The notes below the pieces were generated by a model. That model was not told the origin of the DNA. It saw only the letters and a list, made by a program, of their open reading frames with translations, and ran no database searches. Of a stretch of DNA of 64,000 bases, positions 1-48,381 are shown piece by piece (within the stretch, counting starts at the first letter, position 1; every line of letters starts with the position of its first letter). The translations under genes and the position numbers were made by a program. Source of the stretch: Deltaproteobacteria bacterium (GTDB taxonomy: Bacteria > Desulfobacterota_D > UBA1144 > Nemesobacterales > JAJCZQ01); NCBI GenBank assembly GCA_029262335.1, contig JAJCZQ010000013.1, forward strand, positions 1-64,000. The letters are read 5' to 3'.

Positions 1-911
1 AGATTTACCCCATTAATTCCTGTATATCTGACCCTTGTGTGATTTGATAATAACTGCTCTACCTTTAATTCAGTTTCTGTTAAAAGTTGTGGGTCACTAA
101 GACCGGGGTATCCAAACAGTTGAAAGGCGGGCAATAGTTTAATCAATTGATCATTAAAATCACTATCAATATCATCTTGAATGTTAGTTACAGCAGACTT
201 TAATACATCAGATGTCTGCTTTTCACTAGTATCTTCACTACTTGAAGTTGCAGCTTTAAATAAAGCCTCGAGGATATGTCCTAATACTTCCTTACCACTA
301 CGATTTGTATCATCTAGTGCTCTTTCAGCATTCACAAATCCGACCTGAAGTAGAGATCTTAAGTTTGAAAATTCTAGATTTTTCGTATTAGAAATATCAT
401 TAGGATCAATAGCTTCAATAGTTGTAATGAAAAATTTGGGGATATATTCCTTCAAATTCTTAAAAAAACTATTTTTTTCTGACTTAATTTCATTAAAGAA
501 TGCATCGATCCTACCAGAACCAAGTGAGTAAGCAACTTTAATTTGAGCCAATGAACATTTATCATCTAAATCAATAATAAAATTGGAAAGAGAGCTTAAT
601 TCTGTCCCACTTTGATTGTATTCTATAATTAACTCTACATTTATTTCTGGTATTACAGATCTAATTTTGTCTTCACTTTCTTCTTTTATGAAAAGTTGAT
701 ATGCATCCCAAAATTGCTCATGTACTCCTAATGAAAAATCTTCAAGACTAAAATGAGGTGAACTATCGCCCAAGAGTCTTTGAAATAATTCAGTCAATGA
801 AGTTTTACCGCTATTATTCCTTCCAACAATTAAAGTTGTACGTTCATCAAGTAATAAATCTACTGATTCTAAGAGTCTGAAATTTTTTATTTTTATTTCT
901 TTTATATGCAT
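1..911 (-). CDS. AAA-family ATPase of the OLD endonuclease type (3' end outside window)
   Basis: An open frame runs without a stop from an ATG at 909-911 to the window edge, giving about 303 residues of a larger protein. The N-terminus has the form typical of OLD/RecF/SMC-like ATPases (MHIKEIKIKNFRLLE), followed by a Walker A motif GRNNSGKTS at residues 30-38. The visible end (HTRVRYTGINGVN) resembles the stretch before the signature region in OLD-family proteins. The Walker B region and any C-terminal TOPRIM nuclease domain would lie outside the window. OLD ATPases occur alone or as the GajA half of Gabija-type anti-phage systems; nothing here shows which. The gene sits inside the DNA bounded by a tRNA-Ser fragment at 1367-1407, so it is probably cargo of an integrated element. 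The ATPase call is firm; the role is inference. Confidence 0.8.
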   Translation of the reverse strand, partial: MHIKEIKIKNFRLLESVDLLLDERTTLIVGRNNSGKTSLTELFQRLLGDSSPHFSLEDFSLGVHEQFWDAYQLFIKEESEDKIRSVIPEINVELIIEYNQSGTELSSLSNFIIDLDDKCSLAQIKVAYSLGSGRIDAFFNEIKSEKNSFFKNLKEYIPKFFITTIEAIDPNDISNTKNLEFSNLRSLLQVGFVNAERALDDTNRSGKEVLGHILEALFKAATSSSEDTSEKQTSDVLKSAVTNIQDDIDSDFNDQLIKLLPAFQLFGYPGLSDPQLLTETELKVEQLLSNHTRVRYTGINGVN

Positions 912-1210
912 TTTTTTAAACTATATGAAGAGGATTCAATTTAAACTAATCGTACAATCAAGTTCTATTAAGTCCAATTGATTTTTTATTAATATTTAAG
1001 AAATTAAGACAAGAGACTGAAAAGTTTTTATATATTATATATTTTTACTATATAACAAATAAATGTAGTAAGCATGTATTATGCCAAGAGAAGTTTTGAA
1101 CAAAAACAATATATAAATATAAACTCAATGTATATATTCAATTTAGTAAAAAATAAATCACATTATGTTTTATTAATTAGTTAATACTATATGATTATGT
1201 TATTTATTTT

Positions 1211-1231
1211 TGCTACAAGTATTGCTACAAG
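1211..1231. repeat. Direct repeat TGCTACAAG x2
   Basis: TGCTACAAG occurs at 1211-1219 and 1223-1231, a 12-base period. It lies about 140 bases from the tRNA-fragment junction. Short direct repeats near an attachment core can be integrase arm-binding sites, but that role is only a guess. Confidence 0.4.
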
Positions 1232-1366
1232 CCTAAATACATTTAAATACTATAGAATTCATTCAAACTCATTTTACTAAATAATAATTCTAGAAAATAT
1301 TAAGTAATGTTAGATATTTATACCATTTAACTCTTTTAAACCCTAATTATCACAATTCATAAGTTA

Positions 1367-1407
1367 GGTTTTCAAGACCGGTGCATTAGCCGTTCTGCCA
1401 GCCTTCC
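1367..1407 (-). other. 5' fragment of tRNA-Ser(UGA), putative attachment site
   Basis: Read on the minus strand from 1407, the sequence gives acceptor strand GGAAGGC, TG, a D arm closed by GCA/TGC, and an anticodon arm CCGGT-CTTGAAA-ACC with anticodon TGA. It then departs from tRNA (TAACTT instead of the expected GG and variable arm). No T arm or 3' acceptor strand follows, so the gene is not functional here. This is the expected leftover when an element integrates at the anticodon loop and supplies a replacement 5' half at its other end. The intact tRNA-Ser would then be at the far end of the element. Confidence 0.75.
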
Positions 1408-1531
1408 GTAAATCAGAAAATCTAATATACCTAAAAATTAATATAATCCCATATGAAATATTTAAATTTAGGCCTTTTGCCTTAATTCCTTTAAATATTT
1501 ATAATTGAATACGGCTTAAGGAGGACTATAA

Positions 1532-2911
1532 ATGTTTGCAATATATAAATTTGCAATACTTTTTCTTATTATCACAGTTAATTTTATATTTATTTCTTGT
1601 GATGGGAACAATACTGACGAAATTGCAGTAAATAACCAATTAGAGTCCCTGCTGGATGATATTGTAAAATGCGAGATGCTTGAAAAACAGCTAACCGGCC
1701 TTTCAGTATCAATAGTTCAAAAGGGAAATGTAATCTACCAAAAATCATTTGGAAACGCTGATATTAAAACAGTTACACCTGTCACATCAAGTACCCCTTT
1801 TGCCATCGCATCAATGACCAAGGTATTTACCGCAATAAGTATGCTTCAGCTAATTGAAGAAGGAAAAGCAGGACTTGATGACCAGATAGGCACCTATCTT
1901 CCAGACTTAACTAATGACGACTGGAAATTAAGGACGATACGAAATCTTCTTTCAATGAGCAGCGGTATACCTGAACTCTCCTTTTGCAGTGGAGGTAGTA
2001 AAGACGGAGAAATATGCGAAAACAGCCCACCTTTTATCTTTAACGCCTGCGGGGACGGCTCATCCTGTGAATCAGCCAACAGGATCCCATACGAAGAATA
2101 CCTTGAAAAAGTAGCTGCAGTTCCAATGCAGTTTGAACCTGGTTCAGAATATTTTTATTCTAATACTAATTTCCTGTTGCTCGGGAAATTAATAGAGGCA
2201 ATTAGTGGTAAATCCTATGAAGAATATTTATTGGATAATATTCTTACACCACTTGGCATGTCCGACACAAAGCCCAACACCGTTCCCCCACCCTCAATTA
2301 CCGGTCTGGCCATCGGCTATAAACACGTAACTAATAGCGAAGAAACAAACCTTCTAGAGTGTATATCATTTGATGATCCGCCGGGAAACTGTTCCTCCGC
2401 TCCTCCTTCAGGAGTAAACTGTATGGAAATCCCGGTTGAAAACCTTCGTCTTCCGGACCAGTCATTCAGCGCAGGCTGGCTTGTAACAACCCAAAACGAT
2501 ATTGTTAAACTAGAAAAAGCTCTTCATGATTTAAGCCCCTTGTTATTGAAAAAAGAAACATATGAATTAATGTGGACTAGAACTAAACTCACAAGTGGTA
2601 AATTTGAAAATTTTGGACTTGGCTGGGACATCTGCCTTGAACAGGATGATAATTGCCCACAGCCGGTTGATCCTCTTGCAGGTAGTAGCAATGATGGAAC
2701 TGCATCTGATAACGCAGGCGGCCCCAATGGACGTGTTGTATCAAAAGACGGAGGGCTCCAGGGTTACAGCTCGGTAATTGTAAGATATCTTGATGATGGA
2801 ATTACAGTCACATTTTTTGTTAATACCCATGATGTAGCTCCAGGGCCATTACAGTTTTTCCCTTCACCTCTTGCCGCGGAGCTAGCAAAAACGGTAAAAG
2901 AAAATATTTAG
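1532..2911 (+). CDS. Serine beta-lactamase-fold hydrolase, lipoprotein
   Basis: A 459-residue protein of the beta-lactamase/penicillin-binding-protein-like serine hydrolase family (class C/DD-peptidase fold). The N-terminal signal peptide ends in a lipobox (FIS-C23), so it is probably a membrane-anchored lipoprotein. The catalytic SxxK motif is SMTK at residues 94-97. A YSN motif follows near residue 210, and GGLQGYSS near the C-terminus stands where the third motif of this fold lies. Several cysteines in the middle (CSGGS, CENS, CGDGSSC) may form disulfides, unusual for the family. The strong RBS AAGGAGG at 1518-1524 supports this start. It is the first gene right of the tRNA fragment. Substrate is unknown: D-Ala peptidase, esterase and true beta-lactamase all remain possible. 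Confidence 0.85.
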   Translation: MFAIYKFAILFLIITVNFIFISCDGNNTDEIAVNNQLESLLDDIVKCEMLEKQLTGLSVSIVQKGNVIYQKSFGNADIKTVTPVTSSTPFAIASMTKVFTAISMLQLIEEGKAGLDDQIGTYLPDLTNDDWKLRTIRNLLSMSSGIPELSFCSGGSKDGEICENSPPFIFNACGDGSSCESANRIPYEEYLEKVAAVPMQFEPGSEYFYSNTNFLLLGKLIEAISGKSYEEYLLDNILTPLGMSDTKPNTVPPPSITGLAIGYKHVTNSEETNLLECISFDDPPGNCSSAPPSGVNCMEIPVENLRLPDQSFSAGWLVTTQNDIVKLEKALHDLSPLLLKKETYELMWTRTKLTSGKFENFGLGWDICLEQDDNCPQPVDPLAGSSNDGTASDNAGGPNGRVVSKDGGLQGYSSVIVRYLDDGITVTFFVNTHDVAPGPLQFFPSPLAAELAKTVKENI

Positions 2912-8689: not shown

Positions 8690-10342
8690 TTACTGCCTTG
8701 CAGCTGTATTTGCTTTTAAAGATGGAAGGTGTTTTCCGCCAAGCACTACTTCACCGCTTGCCTTACCTGACTTTAGACGGTCAACAATATATTCCTTGTC
8801 TGGTCCAAGTATGTTTACACCATGGTCTGATTCCACAAGGCATATTAAATTTGCGTTTTCGGTATTATTTATAGCAAGCTCATATATTGCAGAATAATTA
8901 AGTATTGCTGCTTCTACAGTACCGCATGGAAGCGACGGATTTGTAGCGCCTGCATGAAATTCATTTTCAAGGAACCAGTTCGGGTCCGGGTATCCATGAA
9001 AGTGAAGAATCGGCATACCGTCCTTTATTATTTCCGGTTTATATAGTGCGGAAGATATTGCCTGGGCAAGTATTACATAAGTATCAAATGAAGGCCTTAT
9101 GTCTCTTCGCGTAAGGTCTATTCCGCCGGGTATTTCAAGATAGAGCTTCCCTTTTATAAGTCCAATCCTGACTATATCTGTTGTTGGGTTTAAGTTTGTT
9201 TTATCACAACCTGACCTTGATGTCACAATCCAGATATCGGGTATCTGCTGGTATACTTCTTTATCGTTTAATACCGTTTTTACATACCAACGGTCTTTTT
9301 CAGTTGCCCTTACATCTCCCTCAGGAATTCCATCGATAGGATTAAATGATTCCCATTCTTCTTTTGAGACTGTTTTTTTGCCGGCATATTTTGGGGCTTC
9401 GGCAAGCGCTATAAACCCGTATGAAACACCGGTTCTGCCGTCAAGTATCTTGTTTACAACGTCCCTGTGTGATTGCCGCTTTACCTTTTCACTGAATTTA
9501 GACCCTTCGGGAAAAAGGTCTGTTTCTCGCATTGTTCTTCCAAGCTCTGCCAGCCTGTTTGCGTATTCATTGTTTTCGGAATCAAATTTGCCCTGTATAA
9601 ACCTGTTTAGAACAGGGGGTTTTATAGGTGCATATATCTTGGGTATCAGTGACTTTGTAACAAAACTGTTAAGTTCATCGTGATCATAAATAGAGTCGGA
9701 AAGGTTCATGTTTATAATGGCAAATTTTTTACCGGATATTCCTATAACAATCTCAGACATTGTGGAAATAAGGTTTCTGAGTCCAAGAGTAATCTTTCTT
9801 TCGTAAGTTGTCGTTTTATCTTCAAATTCAGGGTCAAGTGTCATAAGTGTAATGATCTGTGTATTAAAAGGGTCCATTACATAACGTGCTGTAAAATCAT
9901 CCGCCCATCCGCTTATTTTCAGAATATCCATTACCGAACGCTCTGAGTTTCTCACCATCCGGTAAATACCTTCTGCCACCTGGGTACAAACTTTTCGCAG
10001 GGGTGAATGGTCTCTCTTAACATCAATAACTGCATTAATATTACGTTTAACCTTTCTTGTGCTGAGTAGTTTTGAAATTAACCCGTTTGTAACTTCTTCT
10101 GAAGTTGCTTCTTCCCATGGGACTACATCAACACCATTGTCTTTTAAACAGTTGATAAGGGATTCCCTGTAGTTTTTTACATTACCTTCATAATAGCTGG
10201 AAGGGACAGGGCGGAATGTTACCTTTACCCTCTCGGCCATCTCTCTTGGCATTTTTGGGTTGATAATATCCTTGTTTACCGGCATGCCTGACAGTATGGA
10301 GATTGTAGACAGTTCAAGGTCTGCTATGTGACCGTTTTTCAT
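8690..10342 (-). CDS. Large conserved-looking protein of unknown function
   Basis: A 550-residue soluble protein that I do not recognise. The ATG at 10342 is chosen over an in-frame TTG at 10369 because CAGAGGAAA lies about 10 bases before it. There is no signal peptide or membrane segment. The C-terminal part looks most enzyme-like: a His-containing stretch PILHFHGYPDPNWF, then HAGATNPSLPCGTVEA with a lone Cys, then ESDHGVNILGPD. The middle has PDIWIVTSRSGCDKT. His, Asp and Cys in these clusters could form a metal or catalytic site, but this is inference. It lies between plsC (60 bases upstream) and the dehydrogenase (4 bases downstream) in a leftward run. Confidence 0.75.
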   Translation of the reverse strand: MKNGHIADLELSTISILSGMPVNKDIINPKMPREMAERVKVTFRPVPSSYYEGNVKNYRESLINCLKDNGVDVVPWEEATSEEVTNGLISKLLSTRKVKRNINAVIDVKRDHSPLRKVCTQVAEGIYRMVRNSERSVMDILKISGWADDFTARYVMDPFNTQIITLMTLDPEFEDKTTTYERKITLGLRNLISTMSEIVIGISGKKFAIINMNLSDSIYDHDELNSFVTKSLIPKIYAPIKPPVLNRFIQGKFDSENNEYANRLAELGRTMRETDLFPEGSKFSEKVKRQSHRDVVNKILDGRTGVSYGFIALAEAPKYAGKKTVSKEEWESFNPIDGIPEGDVRATEKDRWYVKTVLNDKEVYQQIPDIWIVTSRSGCDKTNLNPTTDIVRIGLIKGKLYLEIPGGIDLTRRDIRPSFDTYVILAQAISSALYKPEIIKDGMPILHFHGYPDPNWFLENEFHAGATNPSLPCGTVEAAILNYSAIYELAINNTENANLICLVESDHGVNILGPDKEYIVDRLKSGKASGEVVLGGKHLPSLKANTAARQ

Positions 10343-10402
10343 ATATTTTATTTTCCTCTGAAAAATCAACTACTATACTACACGATTGAAATTATTTTTA
10401 TA

Positions 10403-11131
10403 TCACGAGTTTTCCTGAGCAAGATACTTTTCAACTTCCGGCTCCAGAGCGCCCCTAACGCTGTTTTCCAGCTCCTCCCTGCCCTTCTTTCCCCTGGGAA
10501 GTAAACTTACGTCAATTGGATCAAAAAATTTAACATTTATTACATTATTTGGATTTAGTTTGAATTCTTTTTTGTTTTTAATATTTTTTCCGCCCCATAT
10601 AAGCATCGGCACTACCGGTACGCCTGCCAGCATGGCAATAAGAAAACCACCTTTTTTAAAAGGCAGCAGCCGCCCGTCGAGGCTCCTTGTACCCTCGGGT
10701 GCAAGTATTACTGAAGGGCCGGTTTTAATATCCGACACTATTTTCTTTACCTCTCTTGTATCCTCTGAAGAACCGTCCCGCGAAACGAAATAATGCCCGC
10801 CTACTTTTGATACCCACCCTACAAAAGGCATTTTTAATACCTCTTTTTTCATTACTGCTTTCCATTCAAAAGGGATAACAGCGGCAAAAGTAAGTATATC
10901 AAAGGAACTCTGGTGGTTATACATTATTATTGTACTTCTATCCAAAGGGAGTTTTTCATAATTCTCAATTTCAATTTTAACTCCCCAGGCCCACAGCATG
11001 CTCCTACCCCAGTTTCTAACTGCGAGCGTAACAGCTAGCCTGTTAGAAAAAGGTGCCAGTATTAGGCCTAAAATGCCCCAGAACGTTGTAAAAAAGGCAG
11101 AAAGAATATAAGCAAATAGTAGTTTTACCAT
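10403..11131 (-). CDS. plsC: 1-acyl-sn-glycerol-3-phosphate acyltransferase
   Basis: A 242-residue PlsC/LPLAT-family membrane enzyme making phosphatidic acid from lysophosphatidic acid. The catalytic HX4D box is NHQSSFD near residues 72-78, and the glycerophosphate-binding motif is EGTRS near residue 150. A hydrophobic N-terminus anchors it at the inner membrane. Length is normal for bacterial PlsC. It lies 64 bases downstream of a lipid-kinase-family gene on the same strand, so the pair may be a phosphatidic acid synthesis/recycling unit. Confidence 0.9.
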   Translation of the reverse strand: MVKLLFAYILSAFFTTFWGILGLILAPFSNRLAVTLAVRNWGRSMLWAWGVKIEIENYEKLPLDRSTIIMYNHQSSFDILTFAAVIPFEWKAVMKKEVLKMPFVGWVSKVGGHYFVSRDGSSEDTREVKKIVSDIKTGPSVILAPEGTRSLDGRLLPFKKGGFLIAMLAGVPVVPMLIWGGKNIKNKKEFKLNPNNVINVKFFDPIDVSLLPRGKKGREELENSVRGALEPEVEKYLAQENS

Positions 11132-11195
11132 AATAATTTCAATTGATTTATCACTGAACCATAAATAATGTCAAGTGTATCAGGGGTTAGTTGTA

Positions 11196-12095
11196 CTATT
11201 CAGGGACCAGGACCCTGAGCCTGTTTCTAAGAAGAGCTATACTGTATACCCCTTCCTCAAGGACAAATATCTCCCCATCCATATGTCCGGGAATACTTTC
11301 ATATACTGTTAGTTCGGCATTCTCAAGTTTAAGGATATTTACCCCCTCCCTGCCTACATGGTCGGCCTTAAGCGCACGGCTGAGTGTTAACAGTCTTTTA
11401 ATAAAGTTCATGTTTTCTATTAAATGAATGTCGAGAAGGTTATCACTGACACTTGCACCGGGAGCGAGCCGTATACCTCCCTGAGTCGGCCCGTTGGAGG
11501 CTCCAAGGAGAATAAAACTGCTTTCATACACTTTGTCCCCGGAACTAAGTTTAGCCTTAAACCCATTAAACTTAACTGCCTCAATCACCGCACCGATAAG
11601 GTAGCCTGGGAATGCGCCTAAAACTTTTAAATACTTAAACCTTTTTGCTACTGCCCCGTCAAGGCCAATACCGAGCCCGTTTATAAAATACCGATCACGG
11701 AACTTACCTATATCGACGCCAATCTCCCTGCCGGCAACAATATTTCTAAGGGCCAGGTTAAAATCATAGGGAATTCCAAGAGCGCGGGGGAAATCGTTGC
11801 CGCTTCCGCTCGGGATCACCGAAAAGGCAATATCTGCATCGTGTTTTACTAATGAGTTTACAATTTCACTCGAAGTACCGTCGCCACCTACGGAGATTAC
11901 GTGTGTAAACCCCTGTTTAACAGCATTTTTGGCAAAATCCTCAGCATCTCCTCTTTTCGCGGTCTGTTTTATTTCAAAATTTATACCGTTTTCGCCGAGA
12001 TATTTATCAATTTCCGCGGATTTTCCTACCGCAGTGCCTTTACCCGACTTCGGATTTATTATGATTAGGTAATTTCTGTCCTGCAAATTAATCAT
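11196..12095 (-). CDS. Diacylglycerol/lipid kinase family protein (YegS/DgkB type)
   Basis: A 299-residue member of the DAGK catalytic-domain family. Visible motifs are NPKSGKG (residues 14-20), the nucleotide-binding VGGDGTSSEIVNSL (about 66-79) and PSGSGNDFPRAL (about 97-108). The family phosphorylates diacylglycerol, sphingosine-type or other lipids with ATP at the inner membrane face. Together with plsC downstream it suggests phosphatidic acid metabolism. The head of this leftward run is divergent from rpsB. Exact lipid substrate unknown. Confidence 0.85.
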   Translation of the reverse strand: MINLQDRNYLIIINPKSGKGTAVGKSAEIDKYLGENGINFEIKQTAKRGDAEDFAKNAVKQGFTHVISVGGDGTSSEIVNSLVKHDADIAFSVIPSGSGNDFPRALGIPYDFNLALRNIVAGREIGVDIGKFRDRYFINGLGIGLDGAVAKRFKYLKVLGAFPGYLIGAVIEAVKFNGFKAKLSSGDKVYESSFILLGASNGPTQGGIRLAPGASVSDNLLDIHLIENMNFIKRLLTLSRALKADHVGREGVNILKLENAELTVYESIPGHMDGEIFVLEEGVYSIALLRNRLRVLVPE

Positions 12096-12168
12096 CTCAA
12101 TAGATTTTATCTGCTATATCAGTAATAGTAAGTAGCACCAAATATTAATTTTCCAACTTGCTAAAGAT

Positions 12169-12174
12169 TATAAT
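12169..12174 (+). promoter_or_regulatory. Possible -10 box of the rpsB operon
   Basis: A perfect TATAAT lies 48 bases upstream of the rpsB start, in the gap between the divergent lipid-kinase gene and rpsB. No good -35 hexamer is found at 16-18 bases spacing, so the call is weak. Confidence 0.4.
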
Positions 12175-12221
12175 TCATGGTATTAATGTGGGGTTTATTT
12201 TAAAAACACAGGAGAAATTTT

Positions 12222-13116
12222 ATGTCTGAACAAACACAGTCCGGCGAATTGGTAAGTATGAAAAACCTGCTTGAAGCCGGTGTACATTTTGGCCACCAGA
12301 AAAGTCACTGGAATCCAAGAATGAAGTCTTATATTTTCGGAGCTAGAAACGGGATCCATATAATAGACCTCCAGCAAACAGTGGGCTTATTCAAAAAAGC
12401 AAATGATTATATTAAAGGTGTAGCAAGCAACGGTGGTGATGTACTTTTCGTAGGGACTAAGAAACAGGCCCAGGGTATTATTGCCGAAGAAGCACAAAGG
12501 TGTGAAATGCCCTACATAAATTCAAGATGGCTTGGCGGCACACTTACTAACTTCCATACAATCAGATCAAGGGTTGACTATCTACTTGAACTTAAAAAAC
12601 TAGAAGAAGACGGACAGATGGAACTTCTGCCTAAGAAAGAGGTAAAAAACCTAAAAAGGGAAATACAGAAACTTGAATACCTGATTGGCGGAATTGTAAA
12701 TCTTAAAAAGCCACCTGCAGCTCTTTTTATTATTGATACAAGAAAAGAAGATATAGCCGTAAAGGAAGCAAGGACTCTTGGTATTCCGATTACAGCTGTT
12801 GTTGACACCAACTGTGACCCTGAAGATGCCGATTACATCATACCAAGTAATGACGATGCAATTAGGGCCATAAAACTGTTTGTATCCAAAATGGCAGATG
12901 CCTGTATTGAAGGAAGACATATTTACGAACAGAAACTCATGGCTGGCGAAATAGAAAAACCAAAAGAAGAAGAATCAAATGTAATAGTTGAAAGAAAAGT
13001 ATTTGTTTTCAAAGAATTCGGTGATGAGAACAAGGAAGAGACTGCAACTTCGGTAGCAGTATCCGAAGGACCTTCAGAAGTTAATGGAGCAGAGAACAAG
13101 GAGGAACCATCAGAAG

Positions 13117-13124
<8 letters not shown>
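12222..13124 (+). CDS. rpsB: 30S ribosomal protein S2
   Basis: A 300-residue uS2. Diagnostic segments include [41 protein letters not shown] and [13 protein letters not shown]. It binds 16S rRNA at the head/body junction and is needed for S1 docking. It is longer than the ~240-residue E. coli protein because of a C-terminal acidic tail of about 55 residues rich in Glu (KPKEEESN... to [12 protein letters not shown]). RBS AGGAGAAA precedes the ATG. The last 8 bases overlap tsf, so the two are translationally coupled. First gene of rpsB-tsf-pyrH-frr. Confidence 0.97.
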
Positions 13125-14467
<1,343 letters not shown>

Positions 14468-14469
14468 TC

Positions 14470-15036
14470 ATGTGTGATGAAATTGATCTATACCTTGATG
14501 ATGCCGAATCAAGGATGAGTAAAACAATAAGTGTTCTCAAACAGGACCTTAACAAAGTCCGTACCGGAAGGGCTACTACTGCACTTGTTGCAGATATAGT
14601 TGTTGATTATTATGGAACAGCCACACCATTAAACCAGATGTCAAACGTTAGTACACCTGACTCTACAACAATTGTAATTCAGCCCTGGGACGAAACACTC
14701 CTCGTTGAAGTTGAAAAGGCTTTAGTTAAATCTGATATTGGAATTACACCTGCCAACGACGGAAAAATAATCCGATTAAATATCCCTCCCCTCAATGAGG
14801 AACGAAGAAAAGAACTGGTTAAAGTTGTTTCTAAAATATCCGAAGACCATAAAATCTCAATCAGGCAAATAAGGAAAGATACCAACAACCATATTAAAGA
14901 TTTGGAAAAAAGTGATCATGTTCCGGAAGATGTTGTAAAGAAGACATTATCACAGGTACAACTGCTGACTGATAAAATGATCGAAGAAATAACTAAGATC
15001 AATGAAAAAAAACAAAAAGAAGTATTAGAAATTTAA
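14470..15036 (+). CDS. frr: Ribosome recycling factor
   Basis: A 188-residue RRF which, with EF-G, splits post-termination ribosomes. The typical segments KVRTGRATTALV, YYGTATPLNQMSNVSTPD, IRLNIPPLNEERRKELVK and IRQIRKDTNNHIK are all present, and length is standard. It begins 2 bases after pyrH. Confidence 0.97.
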   Translation: MCDEIDLYLDDAESRMSKTISVLKQDLNKVRTGRATTALVADIVVDYYGTATPLNQMSNVSTPDSTTIVIQPWDETLLVEVEKALVKSDIGITPANDGKIIRLNIPPLNEERRKELVKVVSKISEDHKISIRQIRKDTNNHIKDLEKSDHVPEDVVKKTLSQVQLLTDKMIEEITKINEKKQKEVLEI

Positions 15037-48263: not shown

Positions 48264-48381
48264 AACCAGGCAACTACCTACTTTTCCACTCATTGAAGAG
48301 CAGTATCATCGGCCTTGAAGGGCTTAACTTCCGGGTTCGGAATGGTACCGGGTGTGGCCCCTTCAGTATTGCCACCTGAAT
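48264..48381 (-). rRNA. rrf: 5S ribosomal RNA (stand-alone)
   Basis: Read on the minus strand, this 118-base region has the universal 5S features: GGGGCCACACCCGG, CCATTCCGAACCCGGAAG, TTAAGCCC, CGATGATACTGC and AGTAGGTAGTTGCCTGG. Helix I pairs ATTCAGG with CCTGGTT. No 23S rRNA sequence lies upstream (the next gene upstream is rpoD), so the gene is separated from any 16S-23S operon. It has its own consensus promoter. Confidence 0.95.

Follow-up and report, generated by a model that had tools for sequence, protein, structure and literature searches.

The first 1366 bases of the window (the whole 64,000-nucleotide stretch of DNA analysed here) are very probably the left end of a mobile element, whether a genomic island, a prophage-like element or a remnant, integrated into the host tRNA-Ser(UGA) gene. 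The insertion lies in the middle of this gene and strands the gene's front half at the element's edge. Islands of this kind, which leave a 5' tDNA fragment, are known but uncommon and mirror the usual arrangement; the window holds one end of such an island. The window itself carries the displaced half, its junction, a repeat pair, syntenic host genes and GajA cargo, while relatives are the basis for predicting its integrase, its restored tRNA and its far end. The stretch corresponds to bases 1-64000 of a 68,580-base contig (C13, window base 1 being contig base 1) in a 2.09-Mb assembly of 51 contigs that is 92.6% complete (G000). This contig begins inside the GajA-like gene, with 1366 bp of the element present and no sequence to the left of window base 1, and no overlap was found between its start and any other contig of the bin.

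The displaced tRNA half and its junction

On the minus strand, positions 1407-1367 read GGAAGGCTGGCAGAACGGCTAATGCACCGGTCTTGAAAACC, followed by TAACTT (downstream letters TAACTTATG). These 41 nt form a displaced 5' half of the host tRNA-Ser(UGA), running from tRNA base 1 and the 5' strand of the acceptor stem to the anticodon loop and three nucleotides of the 3' strand of the anticodon stem. The half aligns to the tRNA-Ser(UGA) of many relatives at 83-98% over ~42 nt, with E-values per genome as low as 2e-14. The alignment stops after ...GAAAACC(TA), where the intact gene of the relatives reads GGAGGGCTGGCAGAACGGCTAATGCACCGGTCTTGAAAACCGGCGTCC... The sequence and this alignment confirm the identification of minus-strand 1367-1407 as a tRNA-Ser(UGA) 5' half in the preliminary description of this DNA. 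In the terms by which Islander recognizes such fragments, 1367-1407 extends to one end of the gene and has its breakpoint in a known subsite. Neither ARAGORN nor Rfam calls a tRNA at these positions, because only half a tRNA is found there.

The 41-nt half occurs a single time in its genome, and no second exact copy of the core is present in the assembly. The 36 tRNA genes of the assembly include tRNA-Ser GCT, CGA and GGA, but neither an intact tRNA-Ser UGA nor a UGA-type 3' half was found across it (92.6% complete). The lack of an intact gene is what might be seen if the tRNA were split, with halves transcribed and joined in trans, or if a group I intron occupied the anticodon arm. We disfavour this explanation as highly improbable, since the assembly has no 3' half to be joined, Rfam reports no intron, and the same junction appears in two relatives, G009 and G012, both of which also possess an intact gene.

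The recombination core corresponds to the anticodon arm, CCGGT-CTTGAAA-ACC, at 1367..1384 (minus strand), and in both the window and G009 the identity of displaced and intact copies stops after ACC. Crossover would thus fall within the 7-bp anticodon loop. The CTA common to displaced halves corresponds to window positions 1367-1365, and junction searches and alignment place the first bases on the element side of attL at 1362..1366 (minus strand). All four displaced halves of the phylum have a junction ending in CTA. The phylum search covered 58 genomes, with the 5' side fixed and the last two positions allowed to be any non-G base, and found only CTA junctions; a half on contig C321 of G009 was found separately, with one mismatch allowed. 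The CTA form is also seen in three Alphaproteobacteria/Micavibrio contigs and in one Proteobacteria contig, the tRNA-Ser 5' half differing from contig to contig. These came from scanning a single genome for each GTDB species, a search that selects for CTA and is hence no proof of CTA dominance by itself.

The host flank

On the host side, the genes at 8690..15033, encoding a 559-aa protein, an acyltransferase, a diacylglycerol kinase, rpsB, tsf, pyrH and frr, match the region upstream of the tRNA-Ser(UGA) of G012 in the same order and with 47-71% identity, and G009 retains part of this synteny in the form of the acyltransferase and 559-aa protein pair. The sequence from 1408 onward is therefore the ancestral host left flank. 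Read in this way, the half occupies the former site of tRNA-Ser(UGA), and 1-1366 is inserted DNA. The right-hand neighbour of the site in relatives, rsmI, lies in the window's assembly on contig C50, 6.2 kb from the contig end and with no tRNA-Ser beside it; C50 may lie across the gap from C13.

Two further observations concern RNA genes of the host DNA. A 5S rRNA gene at 48265-48379 (minus strand) is the sole match in the window above the Rfam gathering threshold, no 16S or 23S rRNA gene was found near it, and the rRNA genes appear to be unlinked. A sub-threshold Rfam match to the sRNA ES036 (CssrF) at 1522-1562 (minus strand; 27.1 bits against a cut-off of 37.6) is likely due to chance.

Relatives with both ends

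Two relatives reveal both ends of comparable insertions. In Deltaproteobacteria bacterium OFTM111 (G012; JAJCZS010000032.1), a single contig (C32) runs from host genes through a displaced 5' half, whose last letters are GAAAATCTA, into a 2-kb insert containing one long ORF, and on to an intact tRNA-Ser(UGA) and more host genes, including rsmI; in this species, the intact cognate tDNA demanded by Islander lies downstream of the 5' fragment, in the same orientation. The displaced copy is altered in the acceptor stem and the -10 box, whereas the intact copy is unaltered. In Desulfobacterota bacterium AH_259_B03_O07 (G009; JALLOG01), contig C673 carries host genes and then a displaced half ending GAAAACCTA, and contig C46 carries a tyrosine integrase of 362 aa whose gene stops 32 bp short of an intact tRNA-Ser(UGA), followed by rsmI, on a side that matches the G012 right flank. 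The G009 enzyme has a PF00589 (Phage_integrase) domain (E=1.1e-33), a SAM-like N-terminal domain and the catalytic motifs RFHDLRHTAATRM and ILGHSTLSMTMRYAH expected of a tyrosine integrase. An integrase within the island, as also required by Islander, is found 32-39 bp upstream of the intact tRNA-Ser(UGA) in G009, G031 and G039. With both ends visible in G012 and G009, the displaced 5' half, anticodon-loop crossover and element-borne replacement 5' half that had been proposed from the window alone all hold, and the proposal of an integrated element gains support from the host synteny beginning at 1408 and from a pair of arm-type repeats in the left end.

The same relatives bear on whether a scar could have arisen by chance or through a partial tandem duplication of the tRNA and a later deletion, without the action of any integrase. 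The ~60 bp of upstream promoter region that is duplicated along with the half in G012 would suit such an origin. Yet the breakpoint in the anticodon arm is identical in unrelated bacteria, 12-bp-phased repeats recur at a similar distance inside, and integrases stand beside the intact copy, all of which leaves this account with very little probability.

A second question is whether the element can still move. The insert of G012 contains no integrase, and no family integrase was detected in the window's assembly at E<=1e-20 or within the 1.37 kb of element available. The window may accordingly hold a degenerate remnant similar to the 2-kb insert of G012, an old integration in which the integrase has gone and only scars persist (the displaced half, the arm repeats and one cargo gene). 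This is a sub-case of integration that concerns mobility alone, and we consider it possible but doubtful. The GGAAGGC of the window half, against GGAGGGC or GGAGAGC in intact relatives, suggests drift, and the lack of a family integrase in the bin and of an integrase in the G012 insert favours loss, but the missing far end explains the absent integrase equally well, the gajA frame is open over 303 codons and the repeat pair is perfect.

Some genomes hint at repeated or variable occupation of the site. In G009, the half on contig C321 (GAAATCCTA) follows a repeat motif of an element right end and precedes a type IIG restriction gene, which has the appearance of a second element integrated into the tRNA that a first had restored. 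The presence of two displaced tRNA-Ser(UGA) halves in this genome (L094, at C321 ~9700, together with L095 and L093) suggests a tandem array of elements in one tRNA, and the genome as a whole has 24 matches to the integrase. In G029, the overlap common to the end of contig C36 (L097) and the start of contig C14 (L098) stops exactly at ...CTTGAAAACC of tRNA-Ser(UGA). This contig break after GAAAACC fits an assembly fork between occupied and empty sites in the population, and it was left out of the evidence count.

Arm-type repeats and the proposed mechanism

Within the element, a 12-bp-phased direct repeat of the form TTGTAGCAA-TAC-TTGTAGCAA lies at 1210..1230 on the minus strand, where 1230-1210 reads TTGTAGCAATACTTGTAGCAA. 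From their position and pairing, these repeats are probable integrase arm-type binding sites. Most left ends, that of the window included, have a 12-bp-phased direct repeat 113-134 bp inside, and the pattern GTAGCAAN5GTAGCAA has one match in the 64 kb at up to two mismatches, the window pair being perfect. The identical GTAGCAA pair is present in the element end before the C321 half of G009, and many family integrase genes encode the same pair at their 3' end, beside the tRNA, as CCGTAGCAATTTCCGTAGCAATGAA or CCGTACC variants. Across junction loci, a 9/9 repeat at the 12-bp phase is seen in 7 of 11 (the window, C321, L143, L144 and three viral loci) and an 8/9 repeat at the same phase in L142; the pair is imperfect in L093, and none was found in L096 or L139. 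The chance probability of the window repeat is p=0.02 at the 12-bp phase and 0.095 over phases 8-16, which amounts to modest evidence in such AT-rich DNA.

The window being the end of a metagenome-assembled contig, one might suppose that a host contig had been joined to unrelated DNA at the tRNA half. However, the join falls on a recurrent biological junction, with the CTA of the family and its arm repeats, features that a misjoin through shared k-mers would not place there, and we regard a chimeric assembly as most unlikely.

Under integration, an element-borne tyrosine integrase would treat the anticodon arm as a core resembling that of phage lambda, with the stem providing two inverted arms and the 7-bp loop, in which crossover would occur, providing the overlap. 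The circular element would bring its own tRNA-Ser 5' half beside the integrase gene. Recombination would then leave the host 5' half displaced at the left end, as in the window, and at the far end, immediately after int, the element 5' half would be joined to the host 3' half to give a whole gene. By carrying a spare 5' half, the element would allow the host to keep a working tRNA, and the paired 12-bp-phased repeats near both ends would serve as the probable arm-type sites. The side of insertion would follow which tRNA half is carried by attP, and in the 5' arrangement the restored tRNA would come to lie behind int, away from its original promoter.

Composition and gajA cargo of the element

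The GC content is 27% over 1-1366 and falls to 19% over 912..1366, the AT-rich noncoding left end of the element, while equal-size windows of the remaining 62.6 kb average 39.6 +/- 3.1% and none is as low as 1-1366. The sharp change to AT-rich DNA described earlier is hence real, and the OLD-type ATPase reported next to it can now be specified as the N-terminal 303 aa of a GajA homologue. The gajA-like gene, the first cargo gene, is related to that for the ATPase/OLD-type nuclease of Gabija defence; its 5' part occupies 1..911 (minus strand), starting at 911 and running left in the same direction as the displaced half, open through all 303 codons until the contig start truncates it. The product matches PADLOC PDLC00063 (E=1.8e-104, residues 1-302) and Pfam AAA_15, and thus has the GajA-type ATPase by which Gabija is recognized. 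The N-terminal ATPase region is like that of Gabija GajA, whereas the C-terminal TOPRIM nuclease half and the adjacent GajB helicase, which would fall beyond the contig start, are absent from the assembly, the system being known here by the GajA N-terminus. Homologues of this protein among the best plasmid matches are 42.9-44.2% identical and mostly encoded on conjugative plasmids, and no relatives were found in viral contigs. No terminator-like site was detected between the displaced half and gajA, and the old tRNA promoter could drive gajA transcription. Taken as a whole, the junction would be the left attachment end of an integrase-mobilised island, probably one that carries defence functions through gajA.

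An integrase family on both sides of tRNA genes

Integrases ~47-68% identical to the G009 enzyme end at most 60 bp from other tRNA genes. Most members of the family sit on the 3' side in convergent orientation (His, Ala, Pro, Thr, Arg, Glu, Met and Asn), and co-directional members are found on the 5' side of Ser(UGA), Lys(CUU) and Asn(GUU), the Lys and Asn cases being known from gene order alone. At four loci (L117, L171, L115 and L172), co-directional integrases lie directly upstream of tRNA-Asn(GUU) or tRNA-Lys(CUU), and these are probable further 5'-side islands. An element of the convergent type in G015, ~15.8 kb long, retains a displaced tRNA-Asn 3' fragment that begins at the anticodon loop; the crossover region is therefore the same as in the 5' type. 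A tree built from 20 integrases implies at least two changes of side, Ser falling beside His (94/99) and Lys and Asn forming a clade (96/100).

On balance, these patterns favour a single family of bacterial tyrosine integrases that exploits the near-symmetry of the anticodon arm to enter tRNA genes from either side. Most of its members would replace the 3' half, with int convergent, and at least two separate lineages (Ser-UGA and Lys-CUU/Asn-GUU) would have int co-directional and upstream of the tRNA, a position that obliges them to bring the 5' half and probably also to provide for its transcription, keeping the arm-type pair in the end of the int gene through these switches. Promoter scans upstream of restored tRNAs gave mixed results: -10 boxes are clear in the host flank of G009 and in the right copy of G012, and most int-adjacent tRNA copies have no convincing one; that the element provides the tRNA promoter is what we infer from the arrangement. 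The occurrence of one integrase type on either side of tRNA genes, with conserved arm sites, is worth following, and related 3'-side and 5'-side integrases sharing those sites allow a direct test of whether core orientation alone sets the side.

Relation to known islands and phages

Islands with a 5' tDNA fragment account for 159 of the 3919 tDNA islands in Islander, ~4% of those catalogued (PMC4383910). The arrangement described here, with the far end as seen in relatives, resembles them in having a displaced 5' fragment that lies upstream of a restored tRNA and shares its orientation, an integrase within the island and an anticodon-centred crossover. It differs in that the restored tRNA and integrase of the window's element would lie beyond the contig end and in that this integrase family also has many 3'-side members. 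Islander islands span 2-200 kb, and of the window's element the contig includes 1366 bp. A similar layout is known for archaeal pTN3-like integrases, where int precedes the restored tRNA and the int promoter drives expression of that tRNA (PMC8371274); the likeness to these archaeal systems is one of arrangement. Such islands place an essential tRNA gene under upstream DNA that belongs to the element, and here they also constitute a delivery site for defence genes, namely gajA in the window and the type IIG restriction gene in G009. The present family shows the 5'-fragment arrangement in a bacterial lineage that has received little study, and also in phages that infect other hosts.

Among phages, the attP of the T7-like cyanophages S-TIP37 and P-SSP7 matches the first half of tRNA-Leu (PMC8776855). 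Three viral contigs (L138, L149 and L150) carry a tRNA-Ser(UGA) 5' half beside an integrase, with junctions CCTA or CCTT, and L138 and L149 show the same design as the cyanophages with tRNA-Ser(UGA) in place of the tRNA-Leu of cyanobacterial hosts. The remaining six of the nine viral matches (L145, L146, L147, L148, L151 and L152) lack any tRNA sequence ahead of the match, and we discounted them as due to chance. The half is attP-like at 6048-6140 of L138 and 924-1050 of L149, where int flanks the core on the side opposite to that in the G009 layout, and L138 also carries DNA polymerase and ribonucleotide reductase genes.
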